Origin: Salinivirgaceae bacterium
GTDB taxonomy: Bacteria > Bacteroidota > Bacteroidia > Bacteroidales > SZUA-534
Reading direction: 5' to 3'
Length of the DNA: 64,000 nt
NCBI GenBank assembly: GCA_016284875.1
Contig: JAEEPS010000005.1
Span: forward strand, 1 to 64,000
The position numbers and the translations under genes were made by a program. The notes under the pieces were generated by a model. The model had not been told where the DNA came from, searched no databases, and worked only from the letters and a program-made list of their open reading frames with translations. Below are positions 38,215 through 51,014 of the stretch, in pieces (position 1 is the first letter of the stretch; the number at the start of each line of letters is the position of its first letter).

Positions 38215-39501
38215 CTACTCAAAGCAACTTCTAATTATCTCAATAATAATATCTTGTTGCTCGGGAGTCATCTTGTTGTCCGATGGCAGGCACAAGCCGC
38301 GCGCAAAAATATCGGCACCGACATCGTTTGCCTCACCACAATCGATATAGGCGTTCGACTGGCCGCGGCCGTTGCCGTTGGCTGTCACAAACGGGTTCAT
38401 TCGGTAGATTGGCTGCATATGCATCGGCTTCCAGATTGGGCGGCCTTCGGCATTGAATTTTGCCAAAGTTTCAAGGATTTCCGTCGGACAGGTTTTGCCT
38501 TTCTCGGCAATGTACATTGGCTCGTTCTCGCTGCGGACCTGACGGCACATTGCTTCGGGCTTGATAAGCATACAACTGAGCCAATAATTCGGAACGCTGT
38601 TTGCCGAATCAAATGGATTCATTGTAACTGGCAGCCCCTCAAAGCCTTTCTTATAACGCTCGTAGATGGCACGTTTCTGCGCGATATGTTCGTCGAGATA
38701 GTTCATCTGGCCGCGAACAATACCTGCAATTATGTTCGACATTCGGTAATTATAGCCGATTTCTTCGTGTTGATACCACGGTGCGGCCTCGCGCGATTGG
38801 GTTGACCATTTGCGCACCTTGTCGGCATCTTCTTTGCTGTTTGTCAGGAACATACCGCCTGATGAGCCTGTGATTATCTTATTGCCATTGAAACTGATTG
38901 CGCCAAAATCGCCAAAGCCACCAGTTTCTTTACTCTTATAGGTAGCACCGAATGATTCTGCGGCATCTTCAACAATGAGTGCACCGTGGCAGTTGCAGAT
39001 TTCGCGAATCTCATCAATCTTTCCTGGGATACCATAAAGATGAGCCACCACAACAAGTCTGACATCGGGATATATCTCAAAGGCTTTTTCAAGCGCTTTC
39101 GGGCACATATTCCACGTATCAGGCTCTGTATCAATAAAGACAGCCTCACCATCTTCGTAAGCGACAGGATTGATTGTAGCGTCGAAAGTCATATCAGAGC
39201 AGAAGACTTTGTGGCCTTGCAGAGTACCGCAGTTCGGTTTTGCCTGACCATAAAGTTTCTCACCAGCAAGTTTTGTTGCCAAATGAAGCGCGGCCGTTCC
39301 GCAAGAGAGCGCAACAGCATATTTAACTCCAATACGCTCTGCAACAATCTTTTCCACCTCGTTGATATTCTCTCCAGCAGTGGTTATCCAGTTCTTTACA
39401 AAAGCATCGTTCACCCATTTTTGTTCATCGCCGTGCATTGTAGGCGATGACAGCCAAACCTTCTTTTCGAATGGTTTTATGTTTTTGGTATTCTGAAACA
39501 T
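38215..39501 (-). CDS. DegT/DnrJ/EryC1/StrS-family sugar aminotransferase
   Basis: 428 residues. KVWLSSPTMHGDEQKWVNDAF at the N terminus, ALSCGTAALHLATKLAG, LIVEDAAESFGATYKSKETGGFGDFGAISFNGNKIITG (PLP lysine in NGNK) and EIGYNYRMSNIIAGIVRGQM. It should aminate a nucleotide-linked keto sugar, as in pathways to amino-dideoxy sugars. First structural gene after upxY. The partner dehydratase is not in the window. Slightly longer than the family average because of the segment around GEKLYGQAKPNCGTLQ. Confidence 0.9.
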   Translation of the reverse strand: MFQNTKNIKPFEKKVWLSSPTMHGDEQKWVNDAFVKNWITTAGENINEVEKIVAERIGVKYAVALSCGTAALHLATKLAGEKLYGQAKPNCGTLQGHKVFCSDMTFDATINPVAYEDGEAVFIDTEPDTWNMCPKALEKAFEIYPDVRLVVVAHLYGIPGKIDEIREICNCHGALIVEDAAESFGATYKSKETGGFGDFGAISFNGNKIITGSSGGMFLTNSKEDADKVRKWSTQSREAAPWYQHEEIGYNYRMSNIIAGIVRGQMNYLDEHIAQKRAIYERYKKGFEGLPVTMNPFDSANSVPNYWLSCMLIKPEAMCRQVRSENEPMYIAEKGKTCPTEILETLAKFNAEGRPIWKPMHMQPIYRMNPFVTANGNGRGQSNAYIDCGEANDVGADIFARGLCLPSDNKMTPEQQDIIIEIIRSCFE

Positions 39502-41402: not shown

Positions 41403-42371
41403 TCACATCCGCAACTTCAAATCGGCCAGCACAATGGCGGTCATTGCTTCGACAATGGGCGGAACGCGCAGGGCGATACAAGCGTCGTGGCGGCCTTTAA
41501 CTATCAGTGGCTCAACCTTGTGAGTCTCAAAATTGTAGGTCTGCTGCTCGCGGGCAATGCTTGCTGTGGGCTTCACGGCCAGACGGAAATAAAGTTCGTT
41601 GCCATTGGTGATGCCGCCGTTGATGCCGCCAGCGTTGTTGGTGGCTGTTGTGCCGCGCTCGTCGATGATTGCGTCGTTATGCTGCGAGCCAACCATTTTG
41701 GCAGCCGCAAAACCGCTTCCGAATTCAATGCCCTTGACGGCAGGAATGGCAAACACAGCGTGGCTGATGAGCGACTCCACCGAATCCCAGAAAGGCTCAC
41801 CAAGCCCGACAGGCAGACCATTCACTCGGCAATCGACAATGCCGCCAACCGAATCGTTCTGCTCCATTGCCTTTGCCACAGCCGCCTCGATATCGGCTTG
41901 ACCGCCAACTTCAACAATCGTCGATTTGATGCTGACGCCATCGAGCACCTTTTTGGCCACAACGCCTGCGGCCACAATGCCCACCGTGTTACGCGCCGAG
42001 AAATGTCCGCCGCCGCGGTAATCGTTGAAACCCTGATATTTACATTTCCCCGTAAAATCGGCGTGGCCAGGACGGGGCTGCGCCACAAGGTTCGAATAGT
42101 CCGACGAATGGGTGTTGGCGTTTTTGAACAAAATGGTTATCGGGGTGCCAGTGGTATGGCCGTCGAACACGCCCGAAACAATCTCAGGCTCGTCGGCCTC
42201 GATGCGCGGCGTGGTGCCTTTCGCGCCACTTTTGCGACGTTGCAAGTCGGCGGTGAAATCGCTGTCAGTCAGTGCGATACCTGCAGGGCAGCCGTCAATC
42301 ACAACGCCCACCTGCGCTCCGTGCGACTCACCAAAAATGCTCACTCTGAAGATTCTACCAAATGTGTTCAT
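41403..42371 (-). CDS. aroC: Chorismate synthase
   Basis: 322 residues from the ATG at 42371 (MNTFGRIFRVSIFGESHG). Signature blocks: FGESHGAQVGVVIDGCPAG, QRRKSGAKGTTPRIEADE, QPRPGHADFTGKCKYQGFNDYRGGGHFSARNT, and the flavin-contacting GGI(N)GGITNG. It makes chorismate from EPSP with reduced FMN. Somewhat shorter than the common ~360 residues because the C terminus ends soon after VEAMTAIVLADL. It starts 10 bases after the thioesterase stop codon. Confidence 0.96.
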   Translation of the reverse strand: MNTFGRIFRVSIFGESHGAQVGVVIDGCPAGIALTDSDFTADLQRRKSGAKGTTPRIEADEPEIVSGVFDGHTTGTPITILFKNANTHSSDYSNLVAQPRPGHADFTGKCKYQGFNDYRGGGHFSARNTVGIVAAGVVAKKVLDGVSIKSTIVEVGGQADIEAAVAKAMEQNDSVGGIVDCRVNGLPVGLGEPFWDSVESLISHAVFAIPAVKGIEFGSGFAAAKMVGSQHNDAIIDERGTTATNNAGGINGGITNGNELYFRLAVKPTASIAREQQTYNFETHKVEPLIVKGRHDACIALRVPPIVEAMTAIVLADLKLRM

Positions 42372-42381
42372 AATCAATATT

Positions 42382-43089
42382 TTATTTTTTCAATTCGATG
42401 ATTGTGCTTATCTGCTCCGCCAATTTCTCCACAACAAATATAGTGTCATCGGACTGATTAACAACTTCTAAAATCAGTTCATCGGACAGTTTGGCAGGTT
42501 TTTTAAACTCAACGCGCATATTGCGGACCTCGAAATCATCAGGCAGGGCCTCGAGCGCCAAACGAATGTAGTTGGCGTTGTTCATATGGCGGTTATAGTC
42601 GATGTCGTTGCGCTGCACCACATAACTAACTGTACTCGTTGGATTTATCTTCGGCACAATAATTCTACGGTCGGCATAATTCATCTCAAGTTTAGGCTCT
42701 CGATTGAAATTTGCGACCAATTCGTCGCTGATTTTGTTCAGTTTGCCAGTGTCGAGTTTTACAAACGCACCCGTGCTCCAACTCTTGTAGCAAGGCAGTC
42801 CGTTGGCATCGTAGATGAACGTATTGCGGAAACCGAACATCGGATTAATGTCGAAAACCGATGTGGTAACTTTCAGATTCTCTTTGTATTGCGGTACTCG
42901 CACAACTTCGACCTGCCGCGATGCCAGAAGTTGAGCCATTCCGTTTTCGGTAAAGTATTGGTCGTAAACAGGTTCCGATGTTTTCCAAAGTTCTGAACAA
43001 TCCTGCATCATCTGCAAAGCCGAAAACAGTTTTAAACGACCGTCGGCATCGCACATCGAGACTGTAACTTTGTAATCGAGACTATACAT
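42382..43089 (-). CDS. Acyl-ACP thioesterase (FatA/FatB family)
   Basis: 235 residues, double hot-dog fold. LDYKVTVSMCDADGRLKLFSALQMMQDC in the first half; in the second, the catalytic region VVQRNDIDYNRHMNNANYIRLALEAL with the conserved Asn/His. It releases fatty acids from acyl-ACP. The gene overlaps the end of aroA by 8 bases and lies between aroA and aroC, so it is locked into the shikimate operon although its chemistry is unrelated. Confidence 0.9.
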   Translation of the reverse strand: MYSLDYKVTVSMCDADGRLKLFSALQMMQDCSELWKTSEPVYDQYFTENGMAQLLASRQVEVVRVPQYKENLKVTTSVFDINPMFGFRNTFIYDANGLPCYKSWSTGAFVKLDTGKLNKISDELVANFNREPKLEMNYADRRIIVPKINPTSTVSYVVQRNDIDYNRHMNNANYIRLALEALPDDFEVRNMRVEFKKPAKLSDELILEVVNQSDDTIFVVEKLAEQISTIIELKK

Positions 43090-44335
43090 TTCTTGTAACT
43101 ATTTCAAAATCATCGAAAAAGCCAGGATACGACTTGCCGACACACTCCGTGCCTTCGATTGTCACAGCCGACGAAGCCGTCAAAGCGCAGAGTGCCAGCG
43201 ACATAGCCATACGGTGGTCGTTGCAGGCCGAAGCCGTGCCACCGCTTATCGGGCCGCCAGTCACAACCATACTGTCACCTTCAAACTCAACGCAGATGCC
43301 GAGTTTGCCAAGTTCGCGCCTGATTGCTTCCGCACGGTTGCTCTCCTTATGCGTCAGCCGATGAACGCCCGCAATGGCCGATTTTCCCTTGCAATTGGCC
43401 GCCAGAGCCGCCACAACGGGGAACAAATCGGGACAATCGGTGGCATTGAATTTGAAGGGCTGCAGATTATCGTTTTTATTGACAATCAAGCAATTGTCGG
43501 CATCGAAAGCGAATTGTGTGCCCGTAAGGCGCAGAATGTCGAGAATAGCGCGGTCGGCTTGAGCCGATTGCGGATTCAAACCATTGATTTTCAGCGTTCC
43601 AGCAATGACCGCGGCAACAATAAACGCCGCCGCCCCACTCCAATCGCCTTCAACGCGGTATTCTGCGTTGGCGTACTGCTGCCCGCCCTTTATGCTGAAC
43701 TGCTCATAGTTGGCATTTTCAACCGAAACGCCAAAATCGCGCATTATCTGAAGTGTCATATCGATGTACGGACGGCTCGTCAAATTGCTGACTGTCAGCA
43801 CCGAATCGGTTTTGAGTGTTGGCAACGCGAGCAACAATCCCGTCAGGAACTGCGAACTTACCGAACCGTCAACCGTGGCTTTTCCGCCTCTCATCGGGCC
43901 TTTGACCTTGATTGGCAACAACCCTTTATCCGACTGAATATCAACGCCTAACTGACGCAAAGTATCCTCCATAAAACCAACAGGCCGCTGCTGCAACGAC
44001 CCCTCACCTGTCAGCAACACCTCGCTACCGAGCAACGATGCAACGGGCGTGAACATTCGAAGTGCCAAACCCGACTCGCCGCAATGCAAATGACTGCCAC
44101 TCAATCCGTTGACAGGCGGAACAATCTTCAGTTCGGCATCGGAAAGGTCAACCTCGCAGCCAAGACTTTTGGCAACGCCAATCGCCGCACGGCAATCGTT
44201 GCAATCCGATAAGTTGCTGATTATGGTCGGTTTATGCGACAAAACGGCAAGCGCAATGGCACGCTGCATATAACTTTTCGATGGCGGCGCCGTCACGCTT
44301 CCTGCAACTTTCGATGGCTTTATAGTTAAATTCAT
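43082..44335 (-). CDS. aroA: 3-phosphoshikimate 1-carboxyvinyltransferase (EPSP synthase)
   Basis: 417 residues. PPSKSYMQRAIALA (residues 17-30), LHCGESGLALRMFTP, VSSQFLTGLLLALP, ATDCPDLFPVVAALAAN, RLTHKESNRAEAI and NDHRMAMSLALCAL cover all the conserved active-site segments. It joins PEP to shikimate-3-phosphate. The sequence CGESGLALRMF has Ser-Gly-Leu-Ala in place of the usual SGTA/TRF of class I enzymes, as in many Bacteroidota. Start overlaps the aroD stop by 4 bases. Confidence 0.95.
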   Translation of the reverse strand: MNLTIKPSKVAGSVTAPPSKSYMQRAIALAVLSHKPTIISNLSDCNDCRAAIGVAKSLGCEVDLSDAELKIVPPVNGLSGSHLHCGESGLALRMFTPVASLLGSEVLLTGEGSLQQRPVGFMEDTLRQLGVDIQSDKGLLPIKVKGPMRGGKATVDGSVSSQFLTGLLLALPTLKTDSVLTVSNLTSRPYIDMTLQIMRDFGVSVENANYEQFSIKGGQQYANAEYRVEGDWSGAAAFIVAAVIAGTLKINGLNPQSAQADRAILDILRLTGTQFAFDADNCLIVNKNDNLQPFKFNATDCPDLFPVVAALAANCKGKSAIAGVHRLTHKESNRAEAIRRELGKLGICVEFEGDSMVVTGGPISGGTASACNDHRMAMSLALCALTASSAVTIEGTECVGKSYPGFFDDFEIVTRNV

Positions 44336-44979
44336 TTTGTTTCGGTAAGCAATTGTTTCATTTTGAGCATAATACCTTCGTCGATTTGGCCAGGTGCGGT
44401 TGCACCGCCGTCGGCTGTGGCGACAAAAGTGAATGGCGCGCCCATTGTGATGGCGGCAATGCGAGTCAATGCGCCCACACGTCCCATTCCGATTGCAAGC
44501 ATCTGATAATCGGCATTATACAGATTCAACAGATTCATAACATCGGTTTTGCTATGGCACATACAAGCCAACTTGACCACATCGGCGCCCATTGAGTGAG
44601 CGATGTTGGCAATCTGCTGCAATTCAAGAAATTGCGGCGTCTCGTCGTAATTGTGATACGACACAATCACCTTGCAGTTGTGCCTGCGGGCAATGCTGAT
44701 AATGTTTTTGCGATAGTCGTCGTCGGCCTCAACCTCAACATCAACCCAAGCGGCACCACCCTCGATGGCGGCTTGCAAATAGGCGGTTTGTTCGGCTTGC
44801 GACAGACCGACGGGGCGGCACGTTGCAAGCATATTCTTGTGAGTGCCAAACAGTTGGCGAGTCTGCTCAAGCGTCAGGCCCGACTCCTCAAGTCGGATTT
44901 CGACCATTTCCGCCCCTTCAACCAGACGGCAGATGCTGTCGTAACCCTTTTGCGCCACCGAACGGCATAATGCTGTCAT
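44332..44979 (-). CDS. aroD: Type I 3-dehydroquinate dehydratase
   Basis: 215 residues. MVEIRLEESGL, VSYHNYDETP (catalytic His-containing segment) and ADVVKLACMCHSKTDVM with the Schiff-base lysine identify the type I (class I aldolase-like) enzyme. The end, FTFVATADGGATAPGQI, matches the conserved substrate-binding loop. It turns 3-dehydroquinate into 3-dehydroshikimate. Both junctions are 4-base ATGA overlaps (aroB before, aroA after). On the short side of the family. Confidence 0.92.
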   Translation of the reverse strand: MTALCRSVAQKGYDSICRLVEGAEMVEIRLEESGLTLEQTRQLFGTHKNMLATCRPVGLSQAEQTAYLQAAIEGGAAWVDVEVEADDDYRKNIISIARRHNCKVIVSYHNYDETPQFLELQQIANIAHSMGADVVKLACMCHSKTDVMNLLNLYNADYQMLAIGMGRVGALTRIAAITMGAPFTFVATADGGATAPGQIDEGIMLKMKQLLTETK

Positions 44980-45995
44980 AACTCTATCTGTTTCAATTCG
45001 TTAATATCAATTTTCTCAATCACCACATCGCCAATTCCGCGCATCAGCACAAAATTGATTTGCGAGCCTTCGCGCTTCTTGTCGAGTTCGAGAGCGTTGT
45101 AAATGGCTTGTTTATCGCCAGTTATCACTGTTGGCAGGTTCAGTTTGCGCAACAGCGCCACAATGCGGTCGGCATCGACCTGCGAGAGTAGCCCGCGCTT
45201 GACCGAGAGCCGTGCGGCAACCACCAGACCAAGGCTGACAGCATAGCCGTGACTCACACCAAGCACCTTTTCGGCTGCGTGGCCGTAGGTGTGCCCAAGG
45301 TTGAGTTTGCGGCGCTCACCGTGCTCCTTCTCGTCGCGGTTCACAACGCCCGACTTGATGTTGACCGAATTGTCGACCAGCGTTTCAATGACGTTCATAT
45401 CGAGATTCAAAGCCTTTTCAGCGTTTTCTTCCAGATATTCAAACATTTGACGGTCGGCAATGAGCGTATGTTTCACAATTTCGGCAAAACCGCTGTCGAG
45501 TTGGTCGGCAGGCAGCGTGGTGAGCATCTGCGGGTCGCAAATGACGAACTGCGGCTGATTGAACGTGCCCACCATATTCTTGAATCCCTCGTAGTTGACG
45601 CCGTTCTTTCCGCCCACACTTGCATCGACCTGCGACAGCAAAGTGCCTGACACAAAGCCAAATGCAATGCCTCGCTGATAGATTGACGCGGCAAAACCAG
45701 CCACATCGGTGACAATGCCGCCGCCAACCGCCAGCACAAAGCCTTTGCGGTCGATTTTCAACTCAAGCATCCGCCCGATGATTTCCGACACGGTGGCAAG
45801 CGTCTTCGACTTCTCGCCCAGTCCAATCTCAATTATCGGATAATCAGCGAAATACTTACCGTAGATGCGGTTGACATTGGTGTCGGTGACAACCACAACC
45901 TGCTGCGTGGGCAGATACTTGCGGAAGTTCTTAAAACTCTCGCCCACAAGTATTTGCGAATCACCTTGCGCTCCGTGGATTGTTGTTGTTTTCAA
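44976..45995 (-). CDS. aroB: 3-dehydroquinate synthase
   Basis: 339 residues. GGGIVTDVAGFAASIYQRGIAF, VDASVGGKNGVNYEGFKNMVGTFNQP, DSGFAEIVKHTLIAD and KLNLGHTYGHAAEKVLG are the NAD- and zinc-binding blocks of AroB. The start is noteworthy: the only reasonable one is TTG at 45995 (TTG AAA ACA ACA), with no in-frame ATG near the N terminus. Together with the hairpin-forming leader at 45996-46171 this may lower translation. The aroE and aroK genes of the pathway are not in the window. Confidence 0.94.
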   Translation of the reverse strand: MKTTTIHGAQGDSQILVGESFKNFRKYLPTQQVVVVTDTNVNRIYGKYFADYPIIEIGLGEKSKTLATVSEIIGRMLELKIDRKGFVLAVGGGIVTDVAGFAASIYQRGIAFGFVSGTLLSQVDASVGGKNGVNYEGFKNMVGTFNQPQFVICDPQMLTTLPADQLDSGFAEIVKHTLIADRQMFEYLEENAEKALNLDMNVIETLVDNSVNIKSGVVNRDEKEHGERRKLNLGHTYGHAAEKVLGVSHGYAVSLGLVVAARLSVKRGLLSQVDADRIVALLRKLNLPTVITGDKQAIYNALELDKKREGSQINFVLMRGIGDVVIEKIDINELKQIEL

Positions 45996-46171: not shown

Positions 46172-47257
46172 TCAATCCCCATTCATAATCACCGTCTGCT
46201 TGTTGATTGACTCTTGGTGAATGGCCTTGAAAACGGTGGAAATGAACTCCTCGCTCAAGTTGTGTTTTGCGCCTTTTTCAACAATGCGGCTAATGATTTC
46301 GTCCCAGCGTGACGGCTGTAAAATGGTGATATTGTGCTCTTTCTTGTATTGGCCAATGGCTTCGGCAACCTTCATACGCTCGCCCAGAGTCTTGAGCAAA
46401 TCCTCGTCGAACTTGTCGATTTTCAGACGAAGGTCGTCCAAAGTCTCCTTCTGCGCTTGGTCGAGTTCCACATTACGCAAAACCAACGATTTCAGCAATT
46501 TACCCAAATCTTCGGGTGTCAGTTGCTGCTTGGCGTCGCTCCAGGCCTCCTTCGGGTTGCAGTGGCTCTCGATAATCAGGCCGTCGTAGTTCAGGTCGAG
46601 CGCTTTCTGCGACACTTCCTGAAGCAGTTCGGTGCAGCCCGAAATGTGCGACGGGTCGCAAATCATTGGCAAGCCAGGCATACGGCGGCGGAACTCAATG
46701 GCCATTTGCCACTGCGGAACGTTGCGGAAGCGCGTCTTCTCAAACGACGAGAAACCGCGGTGAATGACGCCCACTCGCTTGATTCCTGCGCCCATAATGC
46801 GCTCAACGGCGCCCACCCACAACTCAACGTCGGGGTTCACAGGATTTTTGATAAGCACAGGAACGTCAACGCCTTGCAGAGCGTCGGCAATCTCTTGCAT
46901 TGCAAACGGGTTGGCCGACGTGCGGGCGCCAATCCAGAGAATATCAACTCCAGCGCGCAACGCCTCGTAAACGTGCTTGAAGTTGGCCACTTCGGTCGAT
47001 GTGAGCAGACCAGTCTCGGCCTTCACGCGTTTCAACCAGGTAAGTCCTTCAGAGCCAACACCTTCGAACGAATTCGGACGGGTGCGCGGTTTCCAGATTC
47101 CCGCACGGAAAATCTCAATGCCCTGCTCTTTCAGGCCGCGGGCGGTTGTCAGCACTTGCTCTTCAGTCTCGGCGCTGCAAGGTCCTGCAATCACCACAGG
47201 ACGCTTTGTGTTCTTTATAATTCCCCACGATTCAAACGGGGTTTCGGTTGTGTTCAT
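46172..47257 (-). CDS. 3-deoxy-7-phosphoheptulonate synthase fused to chorismate mutase
   Basis: 361 residues. Residues ~1-265 are a type I-beta (KDO8P-like) DAHP synthase: VVIAGPCSAETEEQ, FRAGIWKPRTRPNSFEGVG, LWIGARTSANPF, LIKNPVNPD, ICDPSHISG and IESHCNPKEAWSDAKQQL. Residues ~270-361 are an AroQ-type chorismate mutase: LRLKIDKFDEDLLKTLGERMKVAEAIGQYKKE. The fusion makes the first step of the shikimate pathway and the branch towards prephenate in one protein, and lets prephenate or chorismate feed back on DAHP synthase. This is typical for Bacteroidota. It lies between tyrA and aroB on the same strand. Confidence 0.95.
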   Translation of the reverse strand: MNTTETPFESWGIIKNTKRPVVIAGPCSAETEEQVLTTARGLKEQGIEIFRAGIWKPRTRPNSFEGVGSEGLTWLKRVKAETGLLTSTEVANFKHVYEALRAGVDILWIGARTSANPFAMQEIADALQGVDVPVLIKNPVNPDVELWVGAVERIMGAGIKRVGVIHRGFSSFEKTRFRNVPQWQMAIEFRRRMPGLPMICDPSHISGCTELLQEVSQKALDLNYDGLIIESHCNPKEAWSDAKQQLTPEDLGKLLKSLVLRNVELDQAQKETLDDLRLKIDKFDEDLLKTLGERMKVAEAIGQYKKEHNITILQPSRWDEIISRIVEKGAKHNLSEEFISTVFKAIHQESINKQTVIMNGD

Positions 47258-47491
47258 TTTTTTCAGTTTTTTTTGACTTCGGACTTCAGACTACCGACAA
47301 CCGACGGCGTTTTTGGTGAATCGGCCAATCGGTGAATCGAATCCTAAATTGTTAATTATTAATTGTTAATTCATTTTTTCCGTAAATCGGACGCCATTTT
47401 TTATTGGTGTTTGGTGTTAGGTTTTGGGTGTTGGTTGGGGCGAAAAATTTTTCGCACCTTCTATTGCCTTTTGCCTAATGCCTAATGCCTT
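47258..47491. other. Intergenic region between tyrA and DAHP synthase with a perfect palindrome
   Basis: 234 bases. It has word-repeat tracts (TGTTAATTATTAATTGTTAA; GGTGTTTGGTGTT; GCCTAATGCCTAATGCC) and a perfect 16-bp palindrome GCGAAAAATTTTTCGC at 47440-47455, 37 bases after tyrA. No ORF, no -7 box and no terminator with a clear T-run were found. Confidence 0.5.
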
Positions 47492-48334: not shown

Positions 48335-48567
48335 AATTATTTGATTTATTGATTTTTATTTATTTTTGATTTCTGATTTTCGATTTTTGATTTTCAATTG
48401 AACACAGATTTTATTGTTTCTAACCGATTTTATCAGATTCAATCAGAATAAGTTTTCGGTTAAAATCGGATTGAATCGGTCAACGATTTTCTCACCATTC
48501 TGCCTTCATTTTCAATTTTCAATTTTCAATTTTTAACTCCTAATTCCTAACTCCTATCTCCTAACTC
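48335..48567. repeat. Word-repeat tract between pheA and tyrA
   Basis: 233 bases made mostly of imperfect short repeats: TTTTGATTTCTGATTTTCGATTTTTGATTTT, TTTTCAATTTTCAATTTTC and CTAATTCCTAACTCCTATCTCC. It includes an inverted pair CCGATTTTA (48424-48432) / TAAAATCGG (48461-48469). No ORF or promoter box was seen. Confidence 0.6.
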
Positions 48568-49389
48568 CTAATTATTAACCGACGCCCCTTTGTACTCACC
48601 CAAAACCGACAAGTTCGACACAAGATTGAGCACACGGCTCGTGGCGCGGTCGAAATTGCTGCGGTCGCTCCACTGCAAATCAACATAGAATGCGTATTGG
48701 AACGGACTGCCCAGAATCGGCAGCGACTGAATTTTCGTCAGGTTGATGTTGTTGTTCTTGAACTCCGCCAGCACGTCAACCAGCGAGCCAGGCTGATGCG
48801 TCAGTTCGAAGCAGATTGACGCCTTGTCGTTTTCAGGCGAATCGACCGCCGTGCGGCTGATGGCCAGAAAGCGCGTGTAGTTCTTCTTGTGAGTCTGAAT
48901 CTGCGCTGCAAGTATCTGAAGGCCATAGAGTTCGGCCGCATACTCGCTTGCAATGGCCGCCGTGTGGGCGAGTTTCTCCTCGGCCACCTTCTGCGCCGCC
49001 GATGCCGTATCCGACCAGTTTATCATTTTGATATTCGGATAGTTATCGAAGAAATCCTTACTTTGCTGAATTGCGATTGGGTGCGAGTAAACCTCCGTGA
49101 TGTCCTCAATGCGCGTACCAGGCAGAGCCATAAGGTTTTGCGTGATGTGAAGGTTGAGTTCGCCAATCACCTTGAGTTTCGAGCGCTTGAGCAGCAGGTA
49201 GTTCTCCAAAATGCTGCCCGCAATGGTGTTCTCGATGGCCACAATGCCGTAATCGGCTGTGCAGTCCTCAACAGCGCGGAACAAATCGCGGAATTGGTCA
49301 CAGTTGACCGTCTCAATATCAGCACCGAAATACTGCCTTGCGGCTATTTCGTGAAAGGCTCCGTTCACTCCTTGAATTGCGATTTTCAT
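48568..49389 (-). CDS. pheA: Prephenate dehydratase
   Basis: 273 residues. Catalytic domain: MKIAIQGVNGAFHEIAARQYFG, GIVAIENTIAGSI, GTRIEDITEVYSHPIAIQQ, and DTASAAQKVAEEK. The C-terminal ACT domain (ASICFELTHQPGSLVDVLAEFKNNNINLTKIQS) should bind phenylalanine for feedback inhibition. It makes phenylpyruvate from prephenate. Alternative starts at 49395 (ATG) and 49401 (TTG) are in frame; 49389 gives the usual N terminus. The gene is preceded by a Phe/Tyr leader peptide and terminator (49400-49521), so its transcription is predicted to be attenuated. Confidence 0.95.
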   Translation of the reverse strand: MKIAIQGVNGAFHEIAARQYFGADIETVNCDQFRDLFRAVEDCTADYGIVAIENTIAGSILENYLLLKRSKLKVIGELNLHITQNLMALPGTRIEDITEVYSHPIAIQQSKDFFDNYPNIKMINWSDTASAAQKVAEEKLAHTAAIASEYAAELYGLQILAAQIQTHKKNYTRFLAISRTAVDSPENDKASICFELTHQPGSLVDVLAEFKNNNINLTKIQSLPILGSPFQYAFYVDLQWSDRSNFDRATSRVLNLVSNLSVLGEYKGASVNN

Positions 49390-49399
49390 ATTCATTTTC

Positions 49400-49463
49400 A
49401 AAAAAAAAAGCCCCGCAAAACGCGGGGCCTGTATTCATATCAATTACACGAACATTACCCCGC
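49400..49463 (-). terminator. pheA attenuator: intrinsic terminator and antiterminator segment
   Basis: On the minus strand GCCCCGC (plus 422-428 complement side) pairs with GCGGGGC to form a 7-bp GC stem with a 5-nt loop (plus 49410-49428), followed at once by ten Ts (49400-49409). It ends ~11 bases before the pheA ATG. A GCGGGG segment at 49458-49463, one base after the leader-peptide stop codon, is complementary to CCCCGC in the 5' arm and can form a competing antiterminator. A ribosome stalled within the leader leaves GCGGGG free (read-through); one that reaches the stop codon covers it (termination). Confidence 0.85.
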
Positions 49464-49464
49464 C

Positions 49465-49521
49465 TCAATTACTGAAGTAGTAAAAGAAATAATAAGCGAA
49501 GTATGACGGTGTGTTCAACAT
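49465..49521 (-). CDS. Phe/Tyr-rich attenuator leader peptide
   Basis: An 18-codon ORF, ATG to TGA, encoding MLNTPSYFAYYFFYYFSN. Residues 7-16 hold four Phe and five Tyr. It lies between a -7 box (49543-49550) and the pheA terminator, on the pheA strand, and its stop codon is one base from the antiterminator segment. That geometry is that of classical amino-acid leader peptides (pheL, trpL type), with charged tRNA-Phe and tRNA-Tyr sensed by ribosome stalling. It is too short for ordinary gene calling. The regulatory function is inferred; the peptide, terminator and pairing are directly readable. Confidence 0.85.
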   Translation of the reverse strand: MLNTPSYFAYYFFYYFSN

Positions 49522-49542
49522 TGTTTTCTGTTTTTAACGCCG

Positions 49543-49550
49543 CAAAAGTA
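49543..49550 (-). promoter_or_regulatory. -7 box of the pheA leader transcript
   Basis: TACTTTTG on the minus strand matches TAnnTTTG exactly. Transcription would start near 49536, about 15 bases before the leader-peptide ATG. A good -33 TTTG at the normal spacing is not seen (a TTTTG occurs too close), so the upstream element is weak. Confidence 0.5.
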
Positions 49551-49640
49551 ATAGGAATTTCAAAAGATGTTCGGATGATGAGAGATTTTTTCGTGCGAAT
49601 ACGTTCAAAACGTATAGTTAACCATCACACACATATACAA

Positions 49641-51014
49641 CTATCTGTTTTTCAGCAACCCAACCACCTCATCAGGCGAGAGCAACTGTTGTTCGCCCGT
49701 TTCCATATTCTTCAGCATCACCTTGCCCCCATTCACCTCATTCTCACCCACCACGGCCACAAACGGGATGTTGCGCCCGTTGGCGTACGACATCTGTTTC
49801 TTCATCTTGGCTGGCTCAGGATAAAGTTCTGTGCTGATGCCTGCCGCGCGCATTTTTGCAACCACGGGCAGACACCATTGCTGCTCGGTTTCGCCGAACG
49901 TAACAAACAGCAGTTGAGTTGATTGCGTTGCCGACTGCGGGTATAGATTGAGTTGGTCGAGCACGTCGTAGATGCGGTCGGCACCGAACGAGATGCCAAC
50001 ACCCGAAACGCCTGGCATTCCGAAGATTCCTGTAAGGTCGTCGTAGCGGCCGCCGCCAGTGATTGAACCAATCTGAACATCGAGCGCCTTAACCTCGAAG
50101 ATGGCGCCCGTGTAGTAGTTCAGGCCGCGGGCCAGCGTCAGGTCAAGGTCGATTTGCGTTTGCAGGTTGAGCGGCTCAATGGTATTGAAAATGGTTTGCA
50201 GTTCAAGAATGCCCTTCTGGCCCACTTCACTATCTTTCAAAACGTTGGCAATCTGCTCAAGTTTCTGGCGATTGGTACCGTTGAGCGCAAGAATCGGCTG
50301 TAGACGAGCGATTGAATCGTCGCTCAAACCCTTGTCGGCCAACTCTTTATTGACGTTCTCGATGCCGATTTTGTCAAGTTTGTCGATGGCAACGGTGATG
50401 TCCATCATCTTGTCGGGAGCGCCAATGGCCTCGGCAATTCCTGCCAGAATCTTGCGGTTGTTGATTTTCAGCGCCACGCGGATGCCGAAACGCTGATAGA
50501 CATCGTTAACTATCTGAATCAGTTCAACTTCGTTCATCAGCGAGTCGCTGCCAACAATGTCAACATCGCACTGGTAGAACTCGCGGTAACGGCCCTTCTG
50601 GGGCTTGTCGGCACGCCATACGGGCTGAATCTGATAGCGCTTGAACGGAAACTGAAGGTCGTTGCGGTGCTGCACCACAAAGCGCGCAAACGGCACTGTG
50701 AGGTCGTAGCGCAGACCTTTCTCCGAAATCTTGTTTGTAACCTTCACTGAATCTTTCGATTGCAGTAGTTCGGCATCGACATTGCCAAGATAATCGCCCG
50801 AGTTCAGAATCTTGAACAGCAACTTGTCGCCCTCCTCGCCGTACTTGCCCATCAGGGTTGACAGATTCTCGGTTGCGGGTGTCTCAATTTGCTGAAAACC
50901 ATAAAGTTTGAACACGCTCTTGATGGTGTCGAAAATGTAGTTGCGCTTAATCATCTCGGCAGGACCGAAATCGCGCGTGCCCTTTGGTATCGATGGTGTC
51001 TGAACTTGTGCCAT
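49641..51014 (-). CDS. hisS: Histidyl-tRNA synthetase
   Basis: 457 residues, class II synthetase. Motif 1 region [23 protein letters not shown], motif 2 [30 protein letters not shown], the histidine-A motif [15 protein letters not shown], and motif 3 [15 protein letters not shown]. The C-terminal anticodon-binding domain begins near [13 protein letters not shown]. It charges tRNA-His. Located just upstream of the pheA leader; the 120-base gap contains the pheA promoter box, so the two are probably separately controlled. Confidence 0.96.

Follow-up and report, generated by a model that had tools for sequence, protein, structure and literature searches.

In the 64,000-nucleotide stretch of DNA analysed here (the window), which comes from a rumen Bacteroidales genome whose near relatives are labelled Salinivirgaceae, pheA is preceded by what is very probably (roughly 0.93) a classical ribosome-mediated transcription attenuator sensing charged tRNA-Phe and tRNA-Tyr. 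The anatomy of the element, its conservation, covariation and spacing, and its predicted folds all argue for this reading. The window contains the parts of a trp-type attenuator, namely an ORF with control codons, an intrinsic terminator, a mutually exclusive antiterminator with compensatory changes, a 1:2 protector and a spacing that suits a ribosome. These parts are located as follows.

49543..49550, minus strand: TACTTTTG, predicted -7 box of the Bacteroidota type and leader promoter, from its position and the enrichment of the box upstream of relatives' leaders
49465..49521, minus strand: leader peptide ORF MLNTPSYFAYYFFYYFSN and its stop, read from the sequence, with homologous F/Y-rich leaders in relatives
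49494..49503, minus strand: segment 1, UACUUCGCUU, the 5' arm of the protector (codons 7-10), which pairs with segment 2 in the MFE structure and has a region-1:A signal across species
49456..49465, minus strand: segment 2, or A, AGGCGGGGUA, with core GCGGGG at 49463-49458, which forms the protector with segment 1 or the antiterminator with segment 3
49430..49454, minus strand: linker hairpin UGUUCGUGU-AAUUG-AUAUGAAUACA inside the antiterminator, from the folds and the extra linker pairing over 91 sequences
49421..49429, minus strand: segment 3, or B, GGCCCCGCG, the 5' arm of the terminator, from the terminator scan and folds
49408..49416, minus strand: segment 4, or C, GCGGGGCTT, the 3' arm of the terminator, from the terminator scan and fold
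49400..49409, minus strand: ten-T run of the intrinsic terminator, from the sequence and the terminator scan

The initial annotation of this region had described an 18-codon F/Y ORF, a GCGGGG segment after its stop and a ten-T terminator before pheA, and all three match the sequence base for base. The codons of MLNTPSYFAYYFFYYFSN* are ATG TTG AAC ACA CCG TCA TAC TTC GCT TAT TAT TTC TTT TAC TAC TTC AGT AAT TGA (49521-49465, minus strand); nine of the ten at positions 7-16 are aromatic (F/Y) in the window sequence. GCGGGG (49463-49458, minus strand) lies 1 base past the leader stop, and 13 nt separate the last Phe codon from segment A. The terminator, GGCCCCGCG-TTTT-GCGGGGCTT at ~49430-49408 (minus strand) followed by ten T at 49409-49400, was also called by a pattern scan for terminators, and pheA starts at ATG 49395 or 49389, which is 4 or 10 bases past the T run. 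On the upstream side, the TACTTTTG box (49550-49543) is ~22 bases before the leader ATG. The anatomy given in that annotation was sound for the two segments that it recognised but incomplete, as a 1:2 protector (UACUUCGCUU:AGGCGGGGUA) and the linker hairpin are also present.

The 141 nt leader RNA has a predicted folding energy of -46.1 kcal/mol (z = -4.87). When untranslated, the window leader is predicted to form the protector 1:2 (UACUUCGCUU with AGGCGGGGUA), the linker hairpin (49454-49430) and the terminator. If A is left free, the predicted minimum is the antiterminator (-25.1 kcal/mol, with the A-to-B stretch alone at -22), and if A is covered it is the terminator together with the linker hairpin (-23.5 kcal/mol). 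In a scan of ribosome positions, only stalls at codons 11-13 gave the antiterminator as the equilibrium minimum. With the ribosome at codons 14-16 the terminator was the predicted minimum, with alternatives close in energy, and it was also preferred for stalls at codons 7-10. Part of the argument for an attenuator thus rests on co-transcriptional order: since A and B are made before C, the order of synthesis would have to decide the outcome outside codons 11-13. The 1:2 protector is present in the window and in its genus, and its statistical signal is weaker elsewhere; across 91 relatives, pairing between region 1 and A summed to 1309 versus 1159 +/- 22 in shuffles. A design consisting of A, B and C without a protector is therefore weakened, because region 1 pairs with A both above shuffles and in the window fold. 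The linkers of the antiterminator likewise hold pairing beyond that due to composition (-1406.9 versus -1227 +/- 17 kcal/mol over 91 sequences). A TATGTG/TGTATG motif after A was considered first as a pause signal for RNA polymerase and then set aside as less likely, since its position relative to A varies and the extra antiterminator pairing of the linker is a simpler account of it.

The same arrangement was sought upstream of pheA in relatives, and was defined as an F/Y(W)-rich leader, a G-rich segment A and the two arms of a terminator, B and C, of which B is complementary to A. The detector required an ORF of 7-50 codons with at least 6 aromatic codons in 10, then a U-run terminator, and an A complementary to the 5' arm of the terminator; these thresholds were chosen after the first relatives had been seen. 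The full arrangement was found in 19/19 loci read from the genus (some loci being present twice, from two collections). Among genomes with a pheA match, to which all of these fractions are confined and which make up 68 of the 148 sampled Bacteroidales genomes, it was present in 57 of the 70 non-congeneric Bacteroidales, which represents 39 of 50 families, and in 26 of the 31 other Bacteroidia. Elsewhere in the phylum it was found at 3 of 53 loci, and outside the phylum at 0 of 5. Most of the detector misses listed have pheA right behind another gene or lack a visible leader; a few have a clear leader and a terminator outside the rules of the detector. In dinucleotide-shuffled pheA upstream regions, a leader plus terminator occurred in 3 of 2140 sequences and the full set, A:B pairing included, in none of the 2140, and the same detector found the full set on 0 of 107 reverse strands. 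Two loci are worth describing individually. The pheA leader of L095 is followed by a hairpin, ACCCCGACAACGAAATTCGTCGGGGT, that has no T run and could act on translation instead. Additionally, one congeneric bin carries two pheA operons with a leader (L008 and L009, on JAFYYJ contigs), whose PheA proteins are 94% and 89% identical to that of the window, and which may reflect a duplicate or a mixed bin.

The segments themselves differ between families (A being GCGGGG, CGAGGCTT, ACGGGATTTT, GGCAGGATTTT, AAGGTGGGAT and more), and each A fits its own B. The sum of A:B pairing with the own partner was 1799, compared to 1395 for the best of 20000 permutations, which ignore shared ancestry. Two-sided changes occur at most register positions of both A:B and B:C; for instance, position -3 is CG in 43 cases, GC in 27 and TA in 3. 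The pairing of GCGGGG with CCCCGC, suggested earlier as an antiterminator, is thus borne out by covariation across relatives, and the folds agree with it. Similarly, the comparison of pheA upstream regions that had been put forward as a check found the aromatic codons, the terminator and the A:B:C covariation to be preserved in tens of families. The last aromatic codon precedes A by a median of 13 nt (n = 91), and by 11-15 nt in 64 of the 91. A ribosome extends about as far ahead of its A-site codon, so that one stalled at the last control codon would just leave A free. The ratio of T[TA][TC] to T[TA][AG] codons is 755:6 in the reading frame of the aromatic run, against 244:45 and 250:248 in the other frames, a test that is biased in that the ORFs were picked for aromatic richness. 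Lastly, a TAnnTTTG box precedes the leader start by 8-60 nt in 50 of 90 relatives, versus 3.7 expected after shuffling.

These comparisons bear on three other explanations. The hairpin could be the terminator of hisS, or an ordinary terminator, and the ORF a chance T-rich stretch, given that hisS is the upstream gene on the same strand and ends at 49641, ~210 bases upstream. Yet the upstream genes differ in close relatives while leader and hairpin stay with pheA, the leader, A and terminator covary across families, and the frame bias (in ORFs picked as aromatic-rich) is not that of a chance stretch; the comparative data already contradict this explanation, which is very unlikely. A second possibility is a TnaC-like nascent-chain arrest peptide that would respond to a free metabolite within the ribosome tunnel rather than to charged tRNA. 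The leader is short and ends near A, and a stall at a single site would produce the same RNA switch. However, the 89 distinct leaders have only their aromatic character in common: F, Y and sometimes W replace one another, and both length and ends vary. Moreover, the leader before hisG in the same genome carries matching His codons, as sensing of tRNA predicts. An arrest peptide is consequently improbable. Least probable of all is an RNA bound by a protein or metabolite (a riboswitch or T-box) with an incidental ORF. Such an RNA would fold well, as this leader does, but the conserved sequence motif is limited to the paired arms and the aromatic codons are the most conserved feature. Additionally, no Rfam family, including T-box and known riboswitches, reached its gathering score at the attenuator, the sole match above gathering in the window being a tRNA at 8.7 kb.

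A tRNA-sensing attenuator would operate in the following way, for which we infer the transcription start, ribosome stalling, termination efficiency, signal and operon extent. Bacteroidia start translation mostly without Shine-Dalgarno sites. Transcription would begin just downstream of the TACTTTTG box (49550-49543). The 5' region is A-rich and has no Shine-Dalgarno site, and it is there that a ribosome would load to translate the 18-codon leader. With ample Phe and Tyr, the ribosome would reach the stop and cover A (GCGGGG), the B:C terminator would form in the nascent RNA, and RNA polymerase would stop at the T run, ahead of pheA. A shortage of Phe-tRNA or Tyr-tRNA would instead stall the ribosome among the aromatic codons, its leading edge not quite reaching A; A would then pair with B (GCCCCGC), the terminator would be blocked, and pheA and the downstream aromatic genes would be transcribed. 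On an untranslated leader the 1:2 protector would form, making termination the default.

The genes that would be placed under this control are the following.

48568..49395, minus strand: pheA, prephenate dehydratase (ATG 49395 or 49389), with 218.9 bits to NCBIfam NF008865, just under the cut-off of 219, and over the cut-off of PF00800
47492..48334, minus strand: tyrA, prephenate dehydrogenase, with 343.9 bits to NF006307, over the cut-off
46172..47257, minus strand: DAHP synthase / chorismate mutase, with matches to each on the two halves, all under curated cut-offs
41403..45995, minus strand: aroB, aroD, aroA, acyl-ACP thioesterase and aroC, from profile matches, with no minus-strand terminator call between the genes

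The profile matches confirm the initial annotation in placing tyrA, DAHP synthase/mutase, aroB, aroD, aroA, the thioesterase and aroC on the same strand. The pheA/tyrA/aroF/aroB gaps are 233, 234 and 176 bp long, AT-rich and repetitive; those at 48335-48567 and 47258-47491 hold decayed short repeats (ttaggag, gaaaatt). As these three gaps lack both terminator calls and TAnnTTTG boxes on the minus strand, a single pheA-aroC transcript, and with it one RNA controlling the whole aromatic pathway, is plausible from the sequence. The aroB-aroC part would likely be the downstream portion of the same transcript.

The upstream side of the operon has a further element.

49600..49614, no strand assigned: palindrome TACGT-N5-ACGTA, upstream of the promoter, with exact half-sites in 8/8 congeneric loci reaching that far

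The half-sites are kept even though the core and most of the upstream flanks differ among congeneric loci, and the palindrome is possibly an operator, or the edge marker of a conserved block. Exact sites number only 3 in the genome, which is not above a control pattern. Congeneric homology ends just upstream of the promoter (window 49592-49615 compared with L002-L010), and the gene upstream of the pheA operon, hisS in the window, differs in most congeneric genomes, suggesting that this neighbourhood is often rearranged. Elsewhere in the window, a NusG-like protein (PF02357; 39594-40091, minus strand) lies just before a DegT-type aminotransferase (38215-39501); the NusG-like protein resembles the UpxY-type antiterminators that head capsule loci.

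Comparable elements precede other amino acid genes. In the same genome (L213, contig C97), a His-rich leader, MLQHHHHHHYFG, followed by a GC-rich hairpin and a T-rich tail, lies upstream of hisG; this terminator was read from the sequence by eye, the detector having made no call. His leaders are present in most of the relatives read. Other genera and families in the order have Trp-rich leaders with terminators ahead of trpE, and the trpE of the window's genus has no Trp-rich leader directly before it. Additionally, nine Bacteroidales genomes, which belong to seven families, have two complete F/Y attenuators in series ahead of pheA (L037, L055, L092, L109, L160, L169, L171, L175 and L179); the pheA upstream region of the window has one.

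Among the closest known systems is the enterobacterial pheA leader (RF01859), which, like the trp and his attenuators, encodes a leader peptide whose control codons specify the product of the pathway, and which shares the alternative 1:2, 2:3 and 3:4 hairpins and the U-run terminator just before the first gene. In contrast to it, the window leader mixes Phe and Tyr codons (often with Trp in relatives), has no Shine-Dalgarno start and heads a pheA-tyrA-aro cluster. Membership in the RF01859 Phe_leader family is rejected: the window element scores 33.3 bits, below the gathering score of 55, 0 of 5 genomes are over the cut-off, and the match is not specific, as another place in the same genome scores higher. 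Attenuators in Bacteroidetes/Chlorobi are reportedly mentioned already in a 2004 survey of attenuation.

Other descriptions come from the same phylum. In Flavobacterium psychrophilum, 5' elements upstream of the same two genes, pheA and hisG, are described as giving strong clues for leader-peptide attenuation, as conserved in other Flavobacteriaceae and as without Rfam hits (PMC9723704); the passages of its main text on these elements give no peptide, alternative pairing or class-wide analysis. The B. thetaiotaomicron transcriptome contains leader-like sORFs in long 5' UTRs (PMC7366714). Bacteroid-trp RNA (RF01692) is likewise a cis-regulatory RNA from Bacteroidetes and is named after trp (PMC2864571), but it concerns another amino acid and gene, and RF01692 has no match in the window. 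Attenuation in series, as in the nine Bacteroidales relatives, is described for Salmonella mgtCBR with its two short ORFs (PMC3641672); unlike in the account of that system, both Bacteroidales leaders carry F/Y runs before a biosynthetic operon. Therefore, the mechanism is known and hints of it in the phylum exist, and the present analysis adds its extent across the class, the evidence from covariation and spacing, and the tandem arrangement.

By covariation and spacing, trp-type attenuation is near-universal before pheA in the sampled Bacteroidia, a large class with members in the gut, the rumen and aquatic habitats, for which little of gene control has been mapped. The aligned segments form a basis on which an Rfam family could be built. 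It is fairly probable that the Bacteroidia as a class control aromatic (apparently also His and Trp) biosynthesis by leader-peptide attenuation as the default, with two attenuators in series in several families. If true, this would mean tight coupling of transcription and translation at non-Shine-Dalgarno leaders in Bacteroidia. Since the mechanism works only with a ribosome closely behind RNA polymerase, the attenuator could also serve as a ready reporter of such coupling.
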